In this document: piece by piece, positions 3,637 through 62,400 of the stretch
Numbering within the stretch: position 1 is the stretch's first letter
Layout of the letters: each line of letters starts with the position of its first letter
Assembly (NCBI RefSeq): GCF_030678915.1
Contig: NZ_JAUUTZ010000001.1
Span: forward strand, 62,001 to 126,000
Reading direction: 5' to 3'
DNA: 64,000 bases
Source of the DNA: Paracoccus wurundjeri
GTDB lineage: Bacteria > Pseudomonadota > Alphaproteobacteria > Rhodobacterales > Rhodobacteraceae
Notes under the pieces: generated by a model
Databases searched by the model: none
Seen by the model: the letters and a program-made list of their open reading frames with translations, nothing else
Told to the model about the DNA's origin: nothing
Position numbers and translations under genes: made by a program

Positions 3637-5454
3637 ATGACAAGGTTCAGTCTTGTGACGGCGTTGCTATTGGGCAGCGCATGGGCATTTCCGGGGATGG
3701 CGCAGCAGGCGACGGATGCCGTTGCCCCTGAAGCTGCGAGTTCTGAAACCGGCACGGAAGGCGACGCCTTTGCCGATCTTTCCGAAGCGGCGCGGGCCGC
3801 ATTGACCAGCAAGGAATCCGGCGAACCTGTCACTGCGCAGAACTGGATGGTGAGTGCGGCGAATCCCCTGGCGGTCGAAGCGGGCGCTAAGGTCCTGGAA
3901 CACGGCGGATCCGCAGCGGATGCCATGGTGGCGGTGCAAACCGTTTTGGGATTGGTTGAGCCGCAAAGTTCGGGACTTGGCGGTGGGGCGTTTCTTGTCT
4001 GGTATGACGCTGAAAGCGGCGATCTGACGACGCTTGACGGGCGCGAGACTGCGCCGATGGCTGCGACACCGCGCTATTTCCAGGATGAAGAAGGCGAGCC
4101 GCTGGAATTCTATGATGCGGTGGTCGGCGGACGTTCGGTCGGCACACCCGGCACGCCCGCGCTTCTCGAAGAGGCGCATCGCCGCTGGGGCAAGGTGAAT
4201 TGGGGCGGGCTGTTCGATGATGCCATCACGCTGGCCGAGGACGGCTTTGCCGTTTCGCCCCGCCTTGCAGGGCTGGTTGCCGAAGAGGGTGAAAGGCTGC
4301 GCCGCTTCCCCGCGACCGAGGAATATTTCTTTCCCGAGGGTACGGCAATCGCAGCGGGGGATCGCCTGAAGAACCCGGAATATGCGCATGTGCTTAAGCG
4401 GCTGGCGCAAGAGGGTAGCAGCGCCTTTTACAGCGGCGAGATTGCCGAGGGAATCGTCGATACCGTGCGCAATGCCGAGGGCAATCCCGGTTTGCTGGCG
4501 CTGGGTGACTTTGCTGCCTATCGGGTCAAGGAACGGCCGGTCGTCTGTGCGGAATACCGGGATCACGATGTCTGCGGGATGGGGCCGCCTTCCTCGGGGG
4601 CGCTGACCATGGGGCAGATTCTTGGCATGCTGGACGGTTATGATCTGGCCTCGCTGGGGGCAGAAAATCCGGAAAGCTGGCGGTTGATCGCGGATGCCTC
4701 GCGCCTGGCATTCGCCGATCGCGAGCGTTACATGGCCGATAGCGATTTCGTTCCGGTTCCCGTCGAAGGGCTGGTCGCGCCAGAATATCTGGCCGAGCGG
4801 GGAAAGCTGCTGGCTGGCGATGATGCCCTGCCCGAGGTCACTGCCGGCTCTCCCGGCTGGTCGCATGCGATGAACTGGGGGCAGGACAGCGCGCTGGAAC
4901 TTCCCTCGACCTCGCATATCTCGATCGTCGATGCCGAGGGGAACGCCCTCTCGATGACCACGACCATCGAGAACGGCTTTGGGTCGCGCCTGTTCACTCA
5001 GGGATTTCTGTTGAACAACGAATTGACCGATTTCTCATTCGAGACGCATGACGAGGCAGGTTATCCAATTGCCAACCGGCTGGAACCGGGCAAACGGCCG
5101 CGATCCTCGATGACGCCCAGCATCGTGCTGAAGGATGGCAAACCGGTGCTGGTAATCGGCTCTCCGGGTGGCAGCCAGATCATCGGCTATACCGCCAAGG
5201 CGATCATCGGCTATCTGGACTGGGGGCTGGATGTTCAGCAGGCAATCGGCCTGCCGAATATCGTCAACCGCTTCGGGCCGATGGATATCGAGGCCGGGAC
5301 AAGTGCCGCTGAGCTGATGCAACCGCTGCAGGATATCGGTTTCGAAGTCGAAGAGACGGATCTGAACTCCGGTCTTCATGGCATTGCCATTACTCCCGAG
5401 GGGCTTTCGGGCGGGGCCGATCCGCGCCGCGAAGGGATCGCGTTGGGCGGATGA
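3637..5454 (+). CDS. ggt: Gamma-glutamyltransferase (gamma-glutamyltranspeptidase)
   Basis: Periplasmic N-terminal nucleophile hydrolase that cleaves glutathione and other gamma-glutamyl compounds. The 605-residue precursor starts with a signal peptide (MTRFSLVTALLLGSAWAFPG then MAQQ). Self-cleavage should occur just before Thr425 in PSTSHISIVDAEGN, generating the small subunit. The oxyanion GSPGGS motif and the LNNELTDFS segment are present, as in E. coli Ggt. The ATG at 3637 is chosen over 3574 and 3622 because it has a GGAGAGG ribosome site and begins the signal peptide. It follows ccmG by about 70 bases and may be cotranscribed. Confidence 0.95.
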   Translation: MTRFSLVTALLLGSAWAFPGMAQQATDAVAPEAASSETGTEGDAFADLSEAARAALTSKESGEPVTAQNWMVSAANPLAVEAGAKVLEHGGSAADAMVAVQTVLGLVEPQSSGLGGGAFLVWYDAESGDLTTLDGRETAPMAATPRYFQDEEGEPLEFYDAVVGGRSVGTPGTPALLEEAHRRWGKVNWGGLFDDAITLAEDGFAVSPRLAGLVAEEGERLRRFPATEEYFFPEGTAIAAGDRLKNPEYAHVLKRLAQEGSSAFYSGEIAEGIVDTVRNAEGNPGLLALGDFAAYRVKERPVVCAEYRDHDVCGMGPPSSGALTMGQILGMLDGYDLASLGAENPESWRLIADASRLAFADRERYMADSDFVPVPVEGLVAPEYLAERGKLLAGDDALPEVTAGSPGWSHAMNWGQDSALELPSTSHISIVDAEGNALSMTTTIENGFGSRLFTQGFLLNNELTDFSFETHDEAGYPIANRLEPGKRPRSSMTPSIVLKDGKPVLVIGSPGGSQIIGYTAKAIIGYLDWGLDVQQAIGLPNIVNRFGPMDIEAGTSAAELMQPLQDIGFEVEETDLNSGLHGIAITPEGLSGGADPRREGIALGG

Positions 5455-52929: not shown

Positions 52930-53123
52930 TAAAGAAAATAAAGTGAATTATTCGAAACGGCGGGTTTGTGACGAATGTCATGACCAGAACGCGGCAAGAA
53001 TATGTATCGAGCTGTGGCACAATCCCGGCAGAACGATTCTCGACCGGATCGCGCAGAAGAGAGACGGGCGATCCCATGACGGCAGGTCACAGCGCCGAAT
53101 AATAGCCGAAAGCCTGACTCGCG
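52930..53123. other. Relic next to attR
   Basis: No gene supported. Bases 52986-53040 align without gaps to 43911-43965 inside the island's left end (42 of 55 identical by my count), suggesting the remains of another element that used the same site. Confidence 0.5.
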
Positions 53124-53615
53124 TCAGACCGTTTCCACATCGATCGGCAAGGCGGTGGTCGTCCGGACGGTTTCCATCGCGAATTTAGATGTCACGTTCC
53201 GGCATGGCAACGCGCGTGTCAGTTCCAGATAGAACTGGTCAAAGGCAGAGGTGTCGGCCACAACGACCTTCAGCAGGTAATCGATATCACCTGCCATTCG
53301 ATAAACCTCTACGATTTCATCGAATTGCGGGATGATCTTTCGAAACTGCGCTCGCCATTCCGGGCTGTGATCCGCAGCCTCGATTTCGATGAATACCATC
53401 AATCCAAGGCCAATCGTATCGGGATCAACCAGGGCAACCCGGCCGGTGATGATCCTGGCAGCTTCGAGCTTTTGCACCCTTTTCCAGCAGGGCGTCTGAG
53501 ACAATCCGACACGCTCTGCCAATTGTGCCACGGGCAGGGTCGCGTCTCGCATCAGTTCATGAAGGATTTTTCGGTCAATCCTGTCGAGTGCGGGCGTGTT
53601 TACTGGAGCGTTCAT
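53124..53615 (-). CDS. Lrp/AsnC-family transcriptional regulator
   Basis: 163 residues: N-terminal HTH (LDRIDRKILHELMRDATLPV then AQLAERVGLSQTPCWKRVQKL) and a C-terminal RAM/AsnC sensing domain (GDIDYLLKVVVADTSAFDQF). Amino acid-responsive regulators; the target here is unknown. It overlaps the upstream unknown gene by 4 bases on the same strand. Confidence 0.92.
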   Translation of the reverse strand: MNAPVNTPALDRIDRKILHELMRDATLPVAQLAERVGLSQTPCWKRVQKLEAARIITGRVALVDPDTIGLGLMVFIEIEAADHSPEWRAQFRKIIPQFDEIVEVYRMAGDIDYLLKVVVADTSAFDQFYLELTRALPCRNVTSKFAMETVRTTTALPIDVETV

Positions 53616-53989
53616 TTATATGGTCCTGCCATCAAGTTGGTCCACGGTGGCGCAAGCCGGGCGAAGAATTCGCTTTCGGCTTGCGCGAGGAGCCATGCAT
53701 TCGGCTCTTCTCTTCTCAGCCCGAAATCATACAGGCTCTGGTGCAGCAGGGCCTGCCAGATCGGATCGAACCGGCCTCGCCGGGGCCTGGGCATCACGAT
53801 CACGCGCAGCTGGCGTTGCGCTTCGGGGTAACTGCGCCAGACGCAAACCCATTTCGGCGCTGCGGTGCGAATTTCCCATCCATCCCCGATCTCGCTCGGA
53901 GCTGGCCCCGCCACCCGCAACTTCGCCGTCGTGAACCACAGCGCGGCACGAAGCCGGAAATGCGGGCCGGATTGGGGCAGGGGTTGCAT
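53612..53989 (-). CDS. Conserved-looking protein of unknown function
   Basis: 125 residues: MQPLPQSGPHFRLRAALWFT with many aromatic and Pro residues (APKWVCVWRSYPEAQRQL; LLHQSLYDFGLRREEPNAWL). No family recognised. It lies between cysA and the lrp gene in the same orientation, 15 bases after cysA, and overlaps lrp by 4 bases, so it may belong to the sulfate operon. Confidence 0.5.
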   Translation of the reverse strand: MQPLPQSGPHFRLRAALWFTTAKLRVAGPAPSEIGDGWEIRTAAPKWVCVWRSYPEAQRQLRVIVMPRPRRGRFDPIWQALLHQSLYDFGLRREEPNAWLLAQAESEFFARLAPPWTNLMAGPYK

Positions 53990-54004
53990 CGCACCCGCCC
54001 ATTC

Positions 54005-54724
54005 CTAGGCCGTGGTGAAGGCGCGAACGAATTCACTGGCCGGACGCGCTCTGATATCGCCGGGTCTGCCGACCTGTTCGATCCGTCCCATCGACATGAC
54101 CACCACCAGATCCGCCAGTTCCATGGCTTCTTCCTGATCATGCGTCACGAAGACGGTTGTCAGACCGGTCGTATCGTGAATCTCGCGCAGGCCCTGACGC
54201 AGCTCTTTTCTGACCTTGGCGTCAAGCGCGCCGAAAGGTTCATCTAGCAGCAGCATGCGCGGCTCGATGGCCAGGGCGCGGGCAAGGGCGACACGCTGAC
54301 GCTGTCCACCCGAAAGCTGGCTGGGATAGCGCGGCCCGATATCGGGCAACTGAATGAGATCCAGCAGACGATTGACGCGCCGCCCTATCTCGGCCTCGGT
54401 CGGGCGTTCCTTGCGTTTTCTGGCGCGCAGACCATAGGCCACGTTTTCGAAAACGGTCATATGCCGGAACAGGGCGTAATGCTGGAACACGAAACCGGCG
54501 CGGCGTTGCTGCACAGTCATCCCGGTTGCATCCTCTCCGTTAAAGAGCACGCGGCCGGAGGTTGGGAACTCAAGCCCCGCGAGGATCCGTAAAAGCGTTG
54601 TCTTGCCGGAACCCGACGGGCCCAGAAGTGCGATCAACGCGCCCGAGGGAATGGAAAGCGACACGGGATGAAGCGCGCGCTCGGCACCGAATTCTTTTGC
54701 GATTTCTTCGATTTCAACAAACAT
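54005..54724 (-). CDS. cysA: Sulfate ABC transporter ATP-binding protein CysA (short form)
   Basis: ATPase driving sulfate/thiosulfate import. Walker [10 protein letters not shown] at residues 35-43, the Q-loop [14 protein letters not shown], signature [15 protein letters not shown] and Walker [12 protein letters not shown]. At 239 residues it stops soon after the ABC domain, lacking the C-terminal TOBE-type domain of the typical ~350-residue CysA. It follows cysW on the minus strand. Confidence 0.93.
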
Positions 54725-54736
54725 GACTGGACCTTT

Positions 54737-55603
54737 CTAATGGCGGCGGGTGGCAGAAAGCAGATCCGCGTAACGCCATTCGAGCAGGGATTTCAGGAGG
54801 AGGGTGACCAGCGCCAGCATGGCCAGCGCTGCGGCCAGAGAGAATGCCGCGACCGAGAGATATTCGTTATAAAGCATTTCGATCATGATTGGCATGGTGG
54901 TCGTCTCACCCCGGATTTTGCCGGAGATGACCGCAACCGCACCGAATTCGCCCATGGCCCGCGCATTGCAAAGAAGCACACCATAAAGCAGCGCCCAGCG
55001 GATATTCGGCAGCGTCACGGTAAAGAATGTACGCCAACCCGAAGCGCCAAGGGTCAGAGCGGCCTCTTCCTCGGCCCGGCCCTGTTCCATCATTACCGGG
55101 ATCAATTCGCGCGCTACGAAGGGGAAGGTCACGAACATCGTGGCGAGCAGGATACCGGGGAGAGCGAAGACGATTTTCATGTCATGCGCGATGAACCAGG
55201 CACCAAGGGCCGAATTCGAACCGAACAGCAGGACCAGCGCCAGACCGGCAACCACCGGTGAGACCGAGAAGGGCAGATCGATCAGCGTGATCAGGAAAGC
55301 CTTGCCGCGAAAATCGAACTTCGTGATTGCCCAGGCCGCTGCGATGCCGAACACGGCATTGAGAGGGACGACAACCGCCGCAACCAGCAGCGTCAGCCGG
55401 ATCGCAGAGCGGGCATCCGGCTCTGAAAGTGAGGAAATCGCGGCAGACCATCCCTCGCGCAGAGCCTCGGCAAAGACCGCGATGAGTGGTGCGAATAACA
55501 GGATGGCGATCAGGACGACAACCGTGCCGATCAGGATATACCGGGCAAGGCGCGGTTCTGTGGTAACGGGGTTTGCCCGTACAGGATACGCAATATCAGA
55601 CAT
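54737..55603 (-). CDS. cysW: Sulfate ABC transporter permease CysW
   Basis: 288-residue membrane permease. The permease (EAA) signature region runs through EEEAALTLGASGWRTFFTVT then LPNIRWALLYGVLLCNARAM, and NEYLSVAAFSLAAAL follows. About six membrane helices. It is 12 bases before cysA and 107 bases after cysT, within the operon. Confidence 0.93.
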   Translation of the reverse strand: MSDIAYPVRANPVTTEPRLARYILIGTVVVLIAILLFAPLIAVFAEALREGWSAAISSLSEPDARSAIRLTLLVAAVVVPLNAVFGIAAAWAITKFDFRGKAFLITLIDLPFSVSPVVAGLALVLLFGSNSALGAWFIAHDMKIVFALPGILLATMFVTFPFVARELIPVMMEQGRAEEEAALTLGASGWRTFFTVTLPNIRWALLYGVLLCNARAMGEFGAVAVISGKIRGETTTMPIMIEMLYNEYLSVAAFSLAAALAMLALVTLLLKSLLEWRYADLLSATRRH

Positions 55604-55709
55604 TCACAAATCCCCCGCGGTTTCGATAATCATTCGGAAACCGGTATTTCCGCTTTCAGAGGACAGGCGCATGCCTGCTCTATGTGGGGGCTGCCGCATT
55701 CGGTTGCTG

Positions 55710-56549
55710 CTAGACATCGCCCATCCTCCGTCTGCTCCAGATCTGGATCGCATTGATCGCCAGCAGCATCGCGAAAGAGATCAGCAGCATGGCAAGTCCG
55801 ATCGCGGTGGCGGCGTCGTAATTATATTCCTCGAGCCGGATCACGATCAGCAGGGGCGCGATCTCGGTTTGAAGCGGAAGGTTGCCCGCGATGAAAATGA
55901 CCGAGCCGTATTCACCGACCGATCGGGCAAGCGCGAGAGCGAAACCGGTCAGGAGCGCGGGCGTCAGCGTGGGCAGGATGACCCGATACAGGGTATAGAT
56001 GCGTCGTGCGCCGAGCGTGGCGCTTGCTTCTTCGATCTCGCGGTCGAGTTCCTCGATCACGGGCTGAACCGTGCGCACCACGAAGGGCAAACCGATGAAG
56101 ATGAGCGCCAGCCAGATGCCGATCTCGGTATAGGCGATCTTGATGTTGAATGGTGCCAGCAACTGTCCGAATACGCCATTGGGTGCGTATAAAGCCGTCA
56201 ATGCAATACCGGCGACTGCTGTCGGCAAGGCGAAGGGCAGATCGATCGCCGCATCGATCAGACGCCGCCCCCAGAACCTGTAGCGAACCAGAACCCAGGC
56301 CAGCACCAGCCCGAATACCAGATTGAACAGCGACGCGATCAGTGCCGCCCGAAAAGAAAGGAGCAGGGCGCTGCGGATGCGCTGTGAATTGACCATTTCC
56401 CACAGATCGGCAGGGCCAATGGTCAATCCCCGACCCAGAAGGGCGGCGATCGGTAAAAGCACGACGATGGAAAGCACCGTCATCATGATCCCGAAACTTA
56501 GCCCAAAGCCCGGAAGGGGCGAGGCCGAGCGGAGAATACCCGTTCTCAT
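55710..56549 (-). CDS. cysT: Sulfate ABC transporter permease CysT (CysU)
   Basis: 279-residue membrane permease: LPFALPTAVAGIALTALYAP and the EAA region EEASATLGARRIYTLYRVIL then PTLTPALLTGFALALARSVG. Second permease of the complex, 3 bases after the substrate-binding gene. Confidence 0.93.
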   Translation of the reverse strand: MRTGILRSASPLPGFGLSFGIMMTVLSIVVLLPIAALLGRGLTIGPADLWEMVNSQRIRSALLLSFRAALIASLFNLVFGLVLAWVLVRYRFWGRRLIDAAIDLPFALPTAVAGIALTALYAPNGVFGQLLAPFNIKIAYTEIGIWLALIFIGLPFVVRTVQPVIEELDREIEEASATLGARRIYTLYRVILPTLTPALLTGFALALARSVGEYGSVIFIAGNLPLQTEIAPLLIVIRLEEYNYDAATAIGLAMLLISFAMLLAINAIQIWSRRRMGDV

Positions 56550-56552
56550 GCC

Positions 56553-57743
56553 TTATTGCCCTTCATAGATCTGGTCGAAAATGCCGCCATCGGCAAAGAA
56601 GGTCGGTTGCACCTCGGCCCAACCGCCGAAATCCTCGATCGAGAGAAGCTCGACTTCGGGGAAGCGGGCGATGTCTTCTTCTGATGCGGCCGAGGTATCC
56701 CAGGCGCGATAGAAATTCTTAAGGGCAAGGGCCTGCGCCTCGGGGCTGTAAAGATGCTCCAGATAGGCTTCGGCGGCTTCGCGCTGTGCGTCTGACTTGA
56801 TGTTTCCGTCGATCAGGGCGACGGGCGGTTCGGCCAGTATCGAGATCGACGGGACCACGATATCGAACGCATCCTCGCCCTGTTCTTCGAGCGCAAGAAA
56901 TGCTTCGTTTTCCCAGGCCAGCAGCACGTCACCCATACCACGCTGAACGAAGGTGTTCGTCGATCCGCGCGCCCCGGTGTCGAGGACCGGAACATTTCCG
57001 TAAAGCGCGGCCACATAGTCCTGCGCCTTTTTCTCGTCGCCGCCGAACTCCTTAAGCGCCCAGCCCCAACCGGCCAGGAAGTTCCAACGGGCACCGCCCG
57101 AGGTCTTGGGGTTCGGTGTGATGACCTGCACATCTTCTGCGACCAGATCATCCCAATCCTCGATGCCTTTCGGATTACCGTCCCGGACAAGGAATACGAT
57201 CGTCGATGTATAAGGCGAGGAATTGTGCGGAAGACGCGACTGCCAGTCGTCGGGTATCTTACCGGTATTTTCCGCGATGACATCGATATCCGCGGAAAGC
57301 GCCAATGTGGCCACCTGTGCTTCCAGCCCGTCAATCACCGACCGGGCCTGTCCGCCGGACCCGCCATGCGACTGGCGCAATGTCACCGGCTCATTGCCTT
57401 GTTCAGTCCACCATTCGTTGAAAAGCTCGTTATATGCCCGGTAAAGTTCCCGGGTGGGATCATAGGAAACGTTCAGGATTTCCACCGATTCCTGTGCATG
57501 CGCAGCAGGTACGCCGCTGACGGCAAGACCGATGGCGGCGATGGTCGAAAGCAACCCTGCGCGCAAATGCCTAGCGGAGAACGCTGCTCTGACAGGCGAG
57601 ACGCGCGTATCTTTTCGTGATGCGACCGGCTTTCCGGACAGTCTGCGACCGCCCGTATCGATCTCGATATGACCACCGACAAGATCCCGGACGAAGGTGC
57701 CCTGCGCGAGTAACTGCGAACTGATGGCGATTGTGCGGATCAT
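56553..57743 (-). CDS. sbp: Sulfate-binding protein with unusual N-terminal extension
   Basis: Periplasmic sulfate-binding protein: EILNVSYDPTRELYRAYNEL, RQSHGGSGGQARSVIDGLEA, LPHNSSPYTSTIVFLVRDGN, NPKTSGGARWNFLAGWGWAL and TGARGSTNTFVQRGMGD are family signatures. The signal-like sequence ends at AHA near residue 83, so ~50 residues (MIRTIAISSQLLAQGTFVRD and on) precede it. The ATG at 57743 has a strong AAAGGAAG site, so the extension is probably translated; a shorter start at a TTG near residue 60 is possible. First gene of the sulfate operon. Confidence 0.9.
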   Translation of the reverse strand: MIRTIAISSQLLAQGTFVRDLVGGHIEIDTGGRRLSGKPVASRKDTRVSPVRAAFSARHLRAGLLSTIAAIGLAVSGVPAAHAQESVEILNVSYDPTRELYRAYNELFNEWWTEQGNEPVTLRQSHGGSGGQARSVIDGLEAQVATLALSADIDVIAENTGKIPDDWQSRLPHNSSPYTSTIVFLVRDGNPKGIEDWDDLVAEDVQVITPNPKTSGGARWNFLAGWGWALKEFGGDEKKAQDYVAALYGNVPVLDTGARGSTNTFVQRGMGDVLLAWENEAFLALEEQGEDAFDIVVPSISILAEPPVALIDGNIKSDAQREAAEAYLEHLYSPEAQALALKNFYRAWDTSAASEEDIARFPEVELLSIEDFGGWAEVQPTFFADGGIFDQIYEGQ

Positions 57744-57860
57744 AGTGACTTCCTTTGCTGAACCGGGTCATCGTTTGCTGTCTGACTGCGCAGCGCTCAC
57801 GCGGCCGGATCATGCGATCAGAACCGCCGTGAGTCGCAGACACCGCCTGACCTCTAAATT

Positions 57861-57877
57861 ACGACAGAGATAGTCGT
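57861..57877. promoter_or_regulatory. Inverted repeat between sbp and the Rrf2 gene
   Basis: ACGAC-AGAGATA-GTCGT, about 118 bases upstream of the sbp start, in the right place to be the operator of the neighbouring Rrf2 regulator. Confidence 0.45.
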
Positions 57878-57925
57878 GTTTTGCAAAGGAAAAATTACGT
57901 CTATTTTGATCGATATTTTGGAAAA

Positions 57926-58393
57926 TTATTCTCCTGCGGCGGCTTCCGACAGGGAAAATCGTTCAAGAGGCTGCGAATCTTCCATCAGGTCTGCCAGTGT
58001 CAGCGACTCGATCATCAGAATATAAGCCGAGTAGAAACCACCAAAGACTGCCCGCACCCGGCAGGTTTCCTCGTCCTTGCAATCCTCGCATCGCTGATAG
58101 GCTTTTCGCGACAGGCAGGGCAAAGGCGCCATCGGCCCGTCGATCAGCCGCAGGATCATGGCGATCGAGATCCGTCTGGGATTCTTGATGAGTTCGTAAC
58201 CGCCCTTGCGTCCGCGTCGGCTGCCGATAAAACCCGCACGCTTCAGATCCAGAAGGATATGTTCCAGAAACCGCTTCGGAGCCCCGGATCGCTCGGCAAT
58301 CTCTTCGATGCGTAGGGCTGTTCCATCCCGTGCCATTTCATCGGCCATCACCATAAGAGACTTGAGAGCGTATTTCGTTTTCTGAGTGATCAT
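57926..58393 (-). CDS. Rrf2-family regulator with four clustered cysteines
   Basis: 155 residues: winged helix (MITQKTKYALKSLMVMADEM then GTALRIEEIAERSGAPKRFL) and Cys93, Cys102, Cys105 and Cys111 in PLPCLSRKAYQRCEDCKDEE plus TC. Iron-sulfur cluster or redox sensing is plausible. It lies 182 bases upstream of the sulfate operon on the same strand, suggesting it controls sulfur uptake, as some Rrf2 proteins do (CymR). Confidence 0.88.
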   Translation of the reverse strand: MITQKTKYALKSLMVMADEMARDGTALRIEEIAERSGAPKRFLEHILLDLKRAGFIGSRRGRKGGYELIKNPRRISIAMILRLIDGPMAPLPCLSRKAYQRCEDCKDEETCRVRAVFGGFYSAYILMIESLTLADLMEDSQPLERFSLSEAAAGE

Positions 58394-58851
58394 TTATTTC
58401 CGGCGGGTTAGAAAAGCTTGATTATCATGGTCGATTTTAACAAGAGCGCAGTAAAAAGCGACCCCAATCTGCGCTTTACGACGCATTTGCGGGGTGTTGT
58501 TCCCTGATCGCCTCATTCACAGCATATCACGAGAAGATAGGGTTCTGACGATCCTTGGGAAGAGCGCGGGCGGCAGTCATGACTTGATCGTGTTCACACC
58601 GTTTGAACGAAAATGAGGAACTGACAATCATTGCAGCCTGATGTGGGCGGTATCATGGCTGGCGCAAAAGCCGGGCATCCGGCTTTGACCGAAAGATGCC
58701 GACGTGAATATGTCTGCATCCTCATGACTGCCGGCATGCGGCTTCCTGATTGACGTATTCGCGGGAATGTCAGGCGGATATTCGTGCGGCTTGCTTAGGC
58801 ATTCTTGCGGAAGTTCGGTGAAGTATAAGCCCTGCGCGCAGGAACCTGCAT
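58394..58851. other. Gene-free region upstream of the Rrf2 gene
   Basis: About 458 bases. Readings here lack ribosome sites or family matches; I see no RNA gene. It would hold the Rrf2 promoter. Confidence 0.4.
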
Positions 58852-59025
58852 TCAAAGCATGCTGTCATTCATGCTGACTCTTTGGCAGGCAAATGCGTTG
58901 CCTTGCTTGCACAAGGCGCGCAATTCACCGATCGCAGGGCCGCCGGCAGGTTTCGGCACCACGCGTTTCGATGAACAGGATGCCGTCAGGGCAATTGCCA
59001 GCATAAGAAGCAGATATCTCAGCAT
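58852..59025 (-). CDS. Small lipoprotein
   Basis: 57 residues: signal MLRYLLLMLAIALTASC (lipobox LTASC), then a basic, Pro-rich stretch (SSKRVVPKPAGGPAIGELRA) and three more cysteines. No family recognised. GAGTG site upstream of the ATG. Proposed from reading the minus strand; it is short, so uncertain. Confidence 0.5.
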   Translation of the reverse strand: MLRYLLLMLAIALTASCSSKRVVPKPAGGPAIGELRALCKQGNAFACQRVSMNDSML

Positions 59026-59414
59026 AATTCACTCATTACAGGGGCGATGACATGGAAAGGGGCCGGAAATCCGGCAACCGGGCTGGCGGCGGGTCTCACG
59101 CGAATAAAACCGCCAATTCCGCCCGCATATACGCGGCGCAGGCCTGACCTGCAGCAGAGCGCGATCTGAATGGCTGTATGTCTGGTCCGGTAATGAACCA
59201 TGCGCGAATCCTTCCATTGCCCGATTACTGCAATTTATCCTCTGATCGTCAATGCGGTTGAAGTTGATGGCGGACTGGTTGTCCTTCACATCCTGGTTTA
59301 TCTGCCGATCTTGTGGATAACTTGCTAATCCTGTCTATATATGGGGTTTTGGTTGACTTGTAGCGGTCTCGAGGCAACAATCCCCAACAGCTTTGATTCT
59401 GGAAAGGTTCGCCT
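59026..59414. other. Intergenic region before smc
   Basis: Nothing supported as a gene. A TTGACTTG box near 59353 may belong to the smc promoter. Confidence 0.4.
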
Positions 59415-62400
59415 TTGCGATTCGACCGTCTTCGCCTCAACGGCTTCAAAAGCTTCGTGGATCCGACCGATCTGGTCATTCGCGAAGGGCTGACGGGTGT
59501 GGTCGGGCCGAATGGGTGCGGAAAATCCAATCTGCTTGAGGCGCTTCGCTGGGTCATGGGTGAAAATCGCCCGACCGCGATGCGGGGCGATGGCATGGAA
59601 GACGTGATCTTCGCTGGAACGACGCGGCGTTCGGCCCGTGGGCATGCCGAGGTTTCATTGAAGATCGACAATCGCGACCGCCTTGCGCCTGCCGGCTTTA
59701 ATGATGAGGATCATTTCGACATTGTGCGCCGCATCACCCGCGATGCGGGCTCTGCCTACAAGATCGCGGGCAAGGATGTGCGGGCGCGGGATGTGCAGAT
59801 GCTGTTTGCCGACGCCTCGACAGGCGCGCATTCTCCGGCGCTTGTCCGGCAGGGGCAGATCAGCGAACTGATCAACGCCAAACCCAAAAGTCGCCGCCGG
59901 ATTCTGGAAGAGGCGGCGGGGATTTCCGGCCTGTATCAGCGTCGGCACGAGGCTGAACTGAAGCTGAACGGGGCGGAAAGCAACCTAACGCGGGTGGACG
60001 ATACGCTGGAACAACTGTCCACGCAGGCCGCCTCTTTGGCGCGGCAGGCGCGTGCGGCGGCGAAGTATCGCGAGATCGGGGCGGCGCTGCGACTGGCCGA
60101 GGGGTTGTTACTTTATCGCCGCTGGTCCGAGGCGGAAGCGTCGCGGATTGCGACTGCGGAAGCCCTGGCCACCGCCGTGAAGGCTGCGGCTGCGGCAGAG
60201 GTGGCATCGCGCGAGGCGGCGGCGCGGCGCGAGGCGGCGGATGAGGCGCTGCCTCCGCTGCGCGAAGAAGAACAGGTGGCGGCGGCGATCCTGTCGCGGC
60301 TGGTGGTCGAGCGGGAGGCTTTGGACGAGGCCGAGGCGCGGGCGGCGGAAACGGTACGGGCCCTGGTCGCGCGGATTGCGCAGCTTGACCGGGATATCGA
60401 GCGCGAAGAGGCGCTGAATCGCGACGCGGGCGAGGTGGTCGAACGACTGGCATGGGAAAAGGCCGAGCTTGAGAAATCGGGCGAAGGGCATGAAGCCAGA
60501 CTGGACATCGCGGCAAATGCTGCCGATGAGGCCGCCGAGGCACTGCGTGAGGTCGAGGGACGTCTGGCGGAGCTGACCGATGAAGCTGCAAGGCTGGCTG
60601 CGCGCCACCAATCCGCAGAGCGTCTGGCATCCGATCTGCGGGACATGCTGGATCGCGCCGAACGTGCGGCGGCTGAGGCGGATGAGAATGCCAAACGCGC
60701 CAGCGCTACGGGTATCGCCGCCGAAGAGGCATTGCGCATGGCCGAAGAGGCGCAGGAGGCTGCCCGCAACCGGGCTGAGGCTGCCGAAGATGCCTTGGCC
60801 GGCGCAGAAATCGCCCGGGCCGAGGCGGAGGCAGCAGAGGCGACCGCCCGCGCAGCGCGGTCGGAAGCCGAGGGTGAATCCGGAGCGCTGGCGGCCGAGA
60901 TGGCGGCACTTAAGCGGCTGGTCGAACGTGGGCAGTCCGACGGCCGCGCTATTCTGGACCGCGTTCAGGTTGCCAAGGGCTATGAAATCGCCTTTGGCGC
61001 TGCGCTTGGTGACGATCTGCGGGCCGGACTGGCCGAGGATGGCGAAAGCGGCTGGCATGAATTGCCGGGCTGGGATTCGCCGCAACCCATGCCCGAGGGT
61101 GCGACAGCGATATCGCAGCATGTCACCGGCCCGGAGGCACTGACGCGGCGCCTGACTCAGGTGGGGCTGGTCGCCGATGCGGGCAGAGGTGCTGCGATGC
61201 AGGCGAGGTTGCGTCCCGGTCAGCGTTTGGTGACGGCAGAGGGAGATCTTTTCCGCTGGGACGGGATGCGGGTGATGGCGGGCGAAGCTTCGTCATCGGC
61301 GGCGCTTCATCTTCAAAAGGTGAACCAGCTCAATGAATTGTCCGGGCAAGTTGAAGAAGCGCAGGAACGTGCCGCGATCGCCGTCGAGGCGCATGACGAG
61401 GCCAGAGCGCGCCTTGCCGATGCGGGGGCGCAAGAGAAATCGGCGCGCGACGCACGACGCGAGGCCGAGCGGCAGTTGTCGGATTCGGCGCGCGCAGCGA
61501 CACGGGCCGAGTCGGATCTGGCCATGGCGAACAGCCGGGTGGACTCGGCGCGTGTTGAGGTCAAGCGACACCGGGAAGATGCTGCCGATGCCCGTAGCCG
61601 GCTGACCCAGGCAGAGCGGGCATTGGCCGAATTGCCGGATCGCGGCGATGCTTCGCGGGCGGTCGAGAATGCCCGGACCGGAGTTGAGGCTGCGCGCATC
61701 GCGACGATGACGCGGCGGACGGCCCTGGATGAATTGCGGCGGGAAGGAAATGCCCGCATCAAACGGCTGCAAGAAATAGCAAAGGAAGAATCGGGCTGGA
61801 AACTGCGGCTTCAGCAGGCCGGCACCCGTTCTTCCGAACTTGCGTCGCGGCGCGACGCGACGGCAGAGGAACTGGAGCAGGCCGAGGCGCAGCCCGCTAT
61901 TCTGGCGGAGAAGCGCGAAAACCTGACCGAACGCGAGGTCGAAGCTCAAGAACGGCTTGATCGGGCGCGCGAAGCCTTATCGATCGCCGATGACGCGGTC
62001 CGCTCGGCCGGCCATGCCGAACGGGATGCAGAGCGTCTTGCGTCCGAGGCTCGTGAAAATCGCGCGGCACTGTCGGCACGGGCCGAGGCAGCGCGGGATG
62101 CAGAGACTACCGCGCGGGCGCGTATTGTCGAGGAAACCGAGGATACGCCCGACGCCTTGCGCGACAAGCTGGCCGACGAGGATACGGATACACCTTCCGC
62201 CATGCTCGAAGATCGGATCGCGAAGCTTCGAACCCAGCGCGATGCGCTTGGTGCCGTCAACCTGCGAGCCGATGAAGATAAGCGCGAAATCGAGGCAGAG
62301 CGCGATCAGCTGGCCGCCGAAAAGGCGGAACTCGAAGAGGCGATCCGTAAATTGCGTCTTGGGATCAACAGCCTGAATCGGGAAGGGCGCGAACGACTGC

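Follow-up and report, generated by a model that had tools for sequence, protein, structure and literature searches.

Proteins exported by the Sec pathway are made with a signal peptide whose N-terminus stays inside the cell, and cleavage of this peptide frees the cargo. The substrate-binding proteins (SBPs) of sulfate ABC transporters, Sbp and CysP, are described by the models NF008022 and TIGR00971. Two further systems bear on the gene described here. For autotransporter signal peptides, long N-terminal extensions are thought to tune the targeting, speed or folding of the precursor. For Rhodobacter capsulatus, the accessible part of one account (PMC9973294) describes CutF, a separate exported protein that controls translation of cutO via an mRNA stem-loop.

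The sulfate SBP gene examined here lies within a 64,000-nucleotide stretch of the Paracoccus wurundjeri genome, which we call the window and whose positions are used throughout. Its product matches nearly the whole sulfate SBP model, and cysT, cysW and cysA follow the gene; unlike the known Sbp/CysP proteins, it adds a conserved 41-residue unit and a linker before the signal peptide. As in the autotransporters, insofar as the accessible part of PMC2805444 describes them, an N-terminal extension sits ahead of a Sec signal peptide, but here the cargo is a periplasmic sulfate SBP rather than a type V secreted protein, and the extension is predicted to fold and has relatives that stand alone. CutF, as described in the accessible part of PMC9973294, is comparable as a small unit positioned upstream in a related bacterium's homeostasis operon. 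Unlike CutF, the unit in the window is fused to the protein and lies ahead of its signal, although at 7 of 75 Paracoccus sulfate loci it forms an ORF of its own.

A conserved leader precedes the signal peptide of a sulfate-binding protein

The SBP is encoded on the reverse strand by an open frame of 396 codons (57743..56553, 396 aa) whose ATG start lies 59 residues ahead of a signal-peptide-like stretch. The preliminary description had noted an extra segment, with a ribosome site, ahead of the export signal, and this segment is real: it comprises 59 residues, and the sequence has a Shine-Dalgarno-like AAAGGAA (57750..57756, reverse strand) six bases 5′ of the ATG. The precursor appears to be built from four stretches, all on the reverse strand. 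Residues 1-41 (57621..57743) form a conserved mini-domain, hereafter the module, which was delimited by family alignments, a profile of stand-alone relatives and AlphaFold2, and which is predicted to be a four-stranded beta barrel. Residues 42-59 (57567..57620) are a linker of low model confidence that differs among relatives. Residues ~60-83 (57495..57566) are a putative internal Sec-type signal peptide, recognised by sequence pattern and hydropathy, with cleavage expected after AHA83 (AHA|Q at 83/84). The mature sulfate-binding domain occupies residues 84-396 (56553..57494, including the stop). Indeed, the sulfate SBP models match only from residue 81 (NF008022, E 1.3e-131, 438.9 bits vs a cut-off of 288) or 85 (TIGR00971, E 5.2e-127, 423.4 vs 155.5), and residues 81-393 cover nearly the whole model.

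Between the ATG and the hydrophobic core, TTG60 and TTG64 are the sole ATG, GTG or TTG codons in the window, neither with a clear ribosome site, and one fused homologue (L121) has no such codon from the module start to the mature domain. A purine-rich site precedes the module ATG in 19 of the 19 fused starts read. In all 37 fused N-termini examined the hydrophobic core lies 19-25 residues ahead of the mature motif and is preceded by net positive charge. In the PLSDB table, which is taken from RefSeq, the start of the Ponticoccus homologue is M69, a residue within the signal peptide and 204 bases past the module ATG; a Thioclava plasmid record has an annotated protein that retains the leader. 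The annotated start of WP_251374303.1 (L144 2501-2705) lies inside the signal peptide, and the module is cut off.

The gene order SBP-cysT-cysW-cysA is continued on the same strand by the CysT permease (55710..56549; TIGR02139, E 2.4e-115), the CysW permease (54737..55603; TIGR02140, E 3.6e-116) and a short-form CysA ATPase of 239 aa (54005..54724; TIGR00968, E 2.2e-104), an operon that is consistent with sulfate binding by the window SBP. An Rrf2-family regulator lies upstream, also on the reverse strand (57926..58393; PF02082, E 4.7e-33; TIGR00738). An Rfam search of 53000-59500 gave zero matches at E 1, and a known RNA element in this region was rejected on that basis.

Sequence comparison places the module in a family of stand-alone small proteins

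The 59 leader residues have no match in Pfam or NCBIfam. When searched against 61 related genomes they gave matches at E up to 1 in 44, a threshold at which many weak rows are chance, and the better matches covered residues 1-45. In an alignment of 27 copies (A1), the window among its rows, T4, Q14, G15, G24, G31 and G37 are invariant. The A1 HMM matched 97 of 101 Paracoccus genomes at E 0.01 and, in the bacterial family to which Paracoccus belongs, 174 of 246 at E 0.001. At the level of the order 141 of 196 genomes matched, which adds little because every match listed belongs to the same bacterial family; in the class, 4 of 289 genomes matched, all four in that family. The A1 profile recovers the window leader at E 3.3e-18, a value that is partly circular since the window is itself an A1 row. 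A profile of 24 stand-alone relatives only (A2), from which the window was excluded, picks out the leader at E 2.2e-8 when run against the window genome, a score above chance that places it in the family. Aligned with 72 stand-alone members, the window leader keeps the invariant M1, T4, Q14, G15, G24, G37 and P39. At the level of sequence, these comparisons show that residues 1-41, which share the reading frame of the SBP, constitute a conserved protein unit found also in a stand-alone small-protein family.

Most copies among the family-level matches listed are short frames away from sulfate genes. A single peptide pattern derived from A2 matched 419 stretches in the genome collection, 413 of them confirmed, and the best 80 of these 413 places were examined as the stand-alone set. 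Their record titles are mostly Rhodobacteraceae or its genera, with a few vague ones; the titles Exiguobacterium and Bauldia among the best 80, both belonging to MAGs, are probably mislabelled. The stand-alone ORFs of this set are 40-52 aa long, and the majority are preceded by a GGGGA- or GGAGG-like site. In 72 of the best 80 (L152-L231, mostly at 4001-4140) the gene is preceded by mutT, in the same orientation, and followed by a convergent infB, a count that describes the mutT-linked type since the best 80 were chosen by a motif of that type; of the others, four have mutT only, two infB only and two neither, in some cases for lack of sequence. A GSCVSVQG-like motif marks the mutT-linked type; its cysteine is absent from fused copies, and the window instead has SSQLLAQG (AQG type). 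A second module type is extended at both its N- and its C-terminus and occurs close to a mipZ/ParA-like gene (L053, L054, L060, L069 and L070; gene names read off the sequences). The window genome has mutT, and a mutT-linked module copy was absent from it at E 10.

Searches of Pfam, NCBIfam and PHROGs with 56 members of alignment A4 gave scattered matches only, none of which was taken as a family (best values 0.00083 in Pfam, for 2 of the 56, 0.016 in NCBIfam and 0.043 in PHROGs). A search of PDB sequences with profile A4 returned CpcN at 0.005, through an 11-residue stretch that recurs, and GAS2 at 0.75; we regard these two hits as chance. The module family is unnamed in Pfam, NCBIfam, PHROGs and PDB sequences, and no earlier report of it or of the fusion was found in the literature searched, which omits most subscription papers.

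The module is constrained as a protein and predicted to fold as a small barrel

In-frame pN/pS was 0.135 for non-fused modules (160 sequences, 303 pairs) and 0.243 for fused modules (23 sequences, 17 pairs), as compared to shifted-frame values of 2.05 and 3.35 (non-fused) and 1.67 and 2.23 (fused), the pairs not being independent since sequences are common to several of them. Judged by these ratios, the module is conserved on its amino acids, that is, it evolves as a protein, with a weaker constraint on the fused module than on the stand-alone one.

AlphaFold2 models the stand-alone protein of P. solventivorans with a pLDDT of 95.5 and strands at residues 2-6, 12-20, 26-30 and 33-39; for the window leader the block means are 91, 96, 96 and 95 over residues 1-40, then 56 and 52. 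The predicted module is thus a compact beta barrel with four strands in 40 residues. Foldseek found zero matches to solved structures at E 0.001. The best VIA match, obtained for the stand-alone member only, was weak (Z 4.5, 41 aligned, rmsd 1.9), and the weak structural matches were of the SH3, Tudor, BirA C-terminal and Hfq kinds. The module resembles SH3-like and Sm/Hfq-like small barrels in its predicted four strands within 40 residues, but it has no significant structural or sequence match to them, and an SH3/Sm-type arrangement is too short and common to claim the module's family. The Foldseek and VIA results, of which the latter cover the families on the VIA list, therefore say only that the module has the look of a minimal barrel, and we assign it to no fold family. 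The analysis turned up no partner, ligand or catalytic motif for the module.

The module is fused, separate or not found at Paracoccus sulfate loci

We counted 75 Paracoccus sulfate loci of the closer SBP type, the window included (76 were read, one a duplicate); two further loci of this type were unreadable and stand outside the 75, and SBP paralogues of 42-49% identity were left out. The module is fused in frame at 25 loci, in one of which (G121) the SBP is split over two frames; it is a separate upstream ORF at 7; and it was not found within 700 bases at 43. One of these 43 (L041, genome G086) may be a hidden positive, since the locus is cut by a contig end and a module copy ends another contig of the same genome. 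The preliminary description had considered that relatives might start at the signal peptide and show no conserved leader, which holds for up to 43 of the 75 loci and fails for the 32 that carry the conserved unit. It had also suggested looking in related sulfate operons for a separate small ORF, which is indeed present at the 7 loci above. Its proposal of a separate small protein fused in frame is borne out by these ORFs and by the stand-alone gene in relatives.

Among the matches listed from outside Paracoccus, all 10 copies with frames over 370 aa are sulfate-SBP fusions, and module-SBP fusions are plasmid-borne in Ponticoccus alexandrii and Thioclava. A tree built from 86 SBP segments places the window among fused forms of several genera, in a group where 9 of 10 rows are fused. 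This tree implies 13 changes of module state; 49 of its 83 inner branches are open, and gain is indistinguishable from loss.

Among the operons read as far as the stop, 25 have a CysA of 239 aa, whether a module is present or not, and one more (L121) has a CysA of 235 aa. Because its length is alike in both groups there is no module-CysA link, and the module as a substitute for the missing regulatory domain of a short CysA was rejected. The ten module-less operons read contain the same CysT, CysW and CysA, and so sulfate transport as such seems not to need the module. An Rrf2 gene lies within 1.7 kb in 14 of the 22 operons with a fused module, in all 5 with a separate one (L298, counted here, is a frameshifted fusion) and in 3 of the 10 that lack a module. 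Overall, Rrf2 is upstream at 19 of 27 module operons vs 3 of 10 without a module, an association that is suggestive only, since related operons are not independent.

Two smaller features of these loci were seen. In L044 and L050 a similar GC-rich, hairpin-like stretch, noticed by eye, separates the small ORF from the SBP gene and is possibly a terminator or a repeat element. In the linkers of most members of one fused-SBP clade (L246-L272), a cysteine occurs in an RC(L/F)-like motif, with L258 and L063 lacking it.

A companion gene ends shortly after its signal peptide

The sole other clear module copy of the window genome, C16 (L051 5397-5696), encodes the module, a linker and a signal peptide, followed by 13 residues and a stop; the SBP is gone, and an apparent hairpin with a T run lies behind the gene. 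The same SBP-less gene is intact in a sister species (G106, L299 from 2621, contig C5). Across the full frame the two genes are separated by 8 changes over 77 synonymous sites and 3 over 223 nonsynonymous sites. In G018 (L052, contig C1) a related module gene is broken by a transposase-like stretch, with an SBP piece ~3.4 kb further on. As a gene encoding little beyond a cleaved remnant, C16 is the best hint that this remnant matters, a hint that comes from two close species and small counts. By the same token, with an intact form in only two known close species and few changes between them, the SBP-less gene could be a young remnant.

A proposed role for the module and its alternatives

In the reading that we prefer, the precursor would consist of a folded mini-domain in the cytosol (residues 1-41), a flexible linker, a cleavable internal Sec signal peptide (~60-83) and the SBP. 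On insertion the signal peptide would keep its N-terminus in the cytosol; cleavage at AHA by signal peptidase I would release the SBP to the periplasm, and the module would stay tethered at the cytosolic face of the inner membrane. The task that its stand-alone relatives carry out in the cytosol might then be performed by the tethered module at the transporter or membrane, perhaps through binding of CysA, the translocon or an RNA. For the architecture and the tethered module jointly we would give a compromise figure of about 0.5. The four-stretch architecture taken by itself is very probable, whereas the tethered remnant as the working form, drawn from general knowledge of Sec export, falls somewhat short of even odds. 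More tentative still is the proposal that one gene yields two working products, a periplasmic SBP and a membrane-tethered mini-domain acting by itself, of which C16 would make the tethered part alone. Signal peptide remnants are usually degraded, so the persistence that the tethered module demands counts against it. So do the weaker constraint on the fused module, the like CysA length with and without a module, the weak fold matches and the majority of Paracoccus loci, where the module seems dispensable.

The module might instead act only in cis before cleavage, where it would tune the targeting, speed or folding of the SBP precursor. Its position ahead of the signal peptide in the fusions agrees with such a role, and the accessible parts of two reports (PMC2805444, PMC2447879) deal with long signal sequences that bear an additional N-domain. 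However, the unit is also a stand-alone gene in relatives; at the 7 of 75 loci with a separate ORF it cannot act in cis on export, and C16 has just 13 residues behind its signal peptide to export. We therefore regard an exclusively cis role as unlikely, if still the foremost of the alternatives.

The preliminary description also raised a regulatory leader peptide. Under a regulatory reading, operon expression would be governed by the act of translating the unit upstream or by RNA structure inside it. The window has no separate ORF to couple, conservation acts on the amino acids of a unit that is predicted to fold, most copies among the matches listed lie away from sulfate genes, and Rfam gives nothing at 53000-59500. 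These points make such a leader improbable, even though a separate short ORF precedes the SBP at 7 of the 75 loci, two of them (L044, L050) with the hairpin-like stretch seen by eye, and Rrf2 is more often upstream of module operons (19 of 27 vs 3 of 10). CutF of R. capsulatus lends this idea a precedent: an exported peptide can, while still nascent, control the gene downstream of it, as the accessible part of PMC9973294 describes.

A neighbouring small gene fused to the SBP by chance and carried along as a neutral passenger would explain the patchy presence of the module (13 state changes on a poorly resolved tree; up to 43 of 75 loci without it), but is hard to reconcile with a fused-module pN/pS of 0.24 over 17 pairs and with retention of the fusion across genera and on plasmids, and we consider it very improbable. 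A misplaced start, the remaining option of the preliminary description, by which translation would begin closer to the signal peptide and the leader go untranslated, has the PLSDB start of the Ponticoccus homologue at M69 in its favour but is effectively ruled out by the lack of a good start before the core in the window (TTG60 and TTG64 only) or of any in L121, and by conservation of the leader at the amino-acid level.

If the tethered reading is correct, the module is a tethered form of a widespread, unnamed family of 40-residue proteins. The comparison exposes a family of ~40 residues with 413 confirmed places by one peptide pattern and no model in the libraries searched. It also provides a possible instance of a signal peptide bearing a folded domain that has a job of its own, in which case annotation that trims the leader discards a conserved protein. 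Since three natural states (fused, separate, not found) occur within one genus, the question is directly testable.

Further copies of the module

In the plasmid collection 14 of 15 matching records have no annotated gene under the match, in a gene table that is incomplete. Sulfitobacter and Paracoccus plasmids (L146-L151) carry module copies without an annotated gene at the place, and several of these adjoin polysaccharide-type genes (mannose-1-phosphate guanylyltransferase, epimerase, VanZ, YjbH). A stand-alone copy in L134 (2948-3067) is positioned downstream of a gene read as polynucleotide phosphorylase; the copies in L184 and L220, with no mutT or infB within their stretches, are similar to it. 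In Marivivens donghaensis (L204) the stand-alone gene is present in two tandem copies, at 4001-4132 and 4268-4396.
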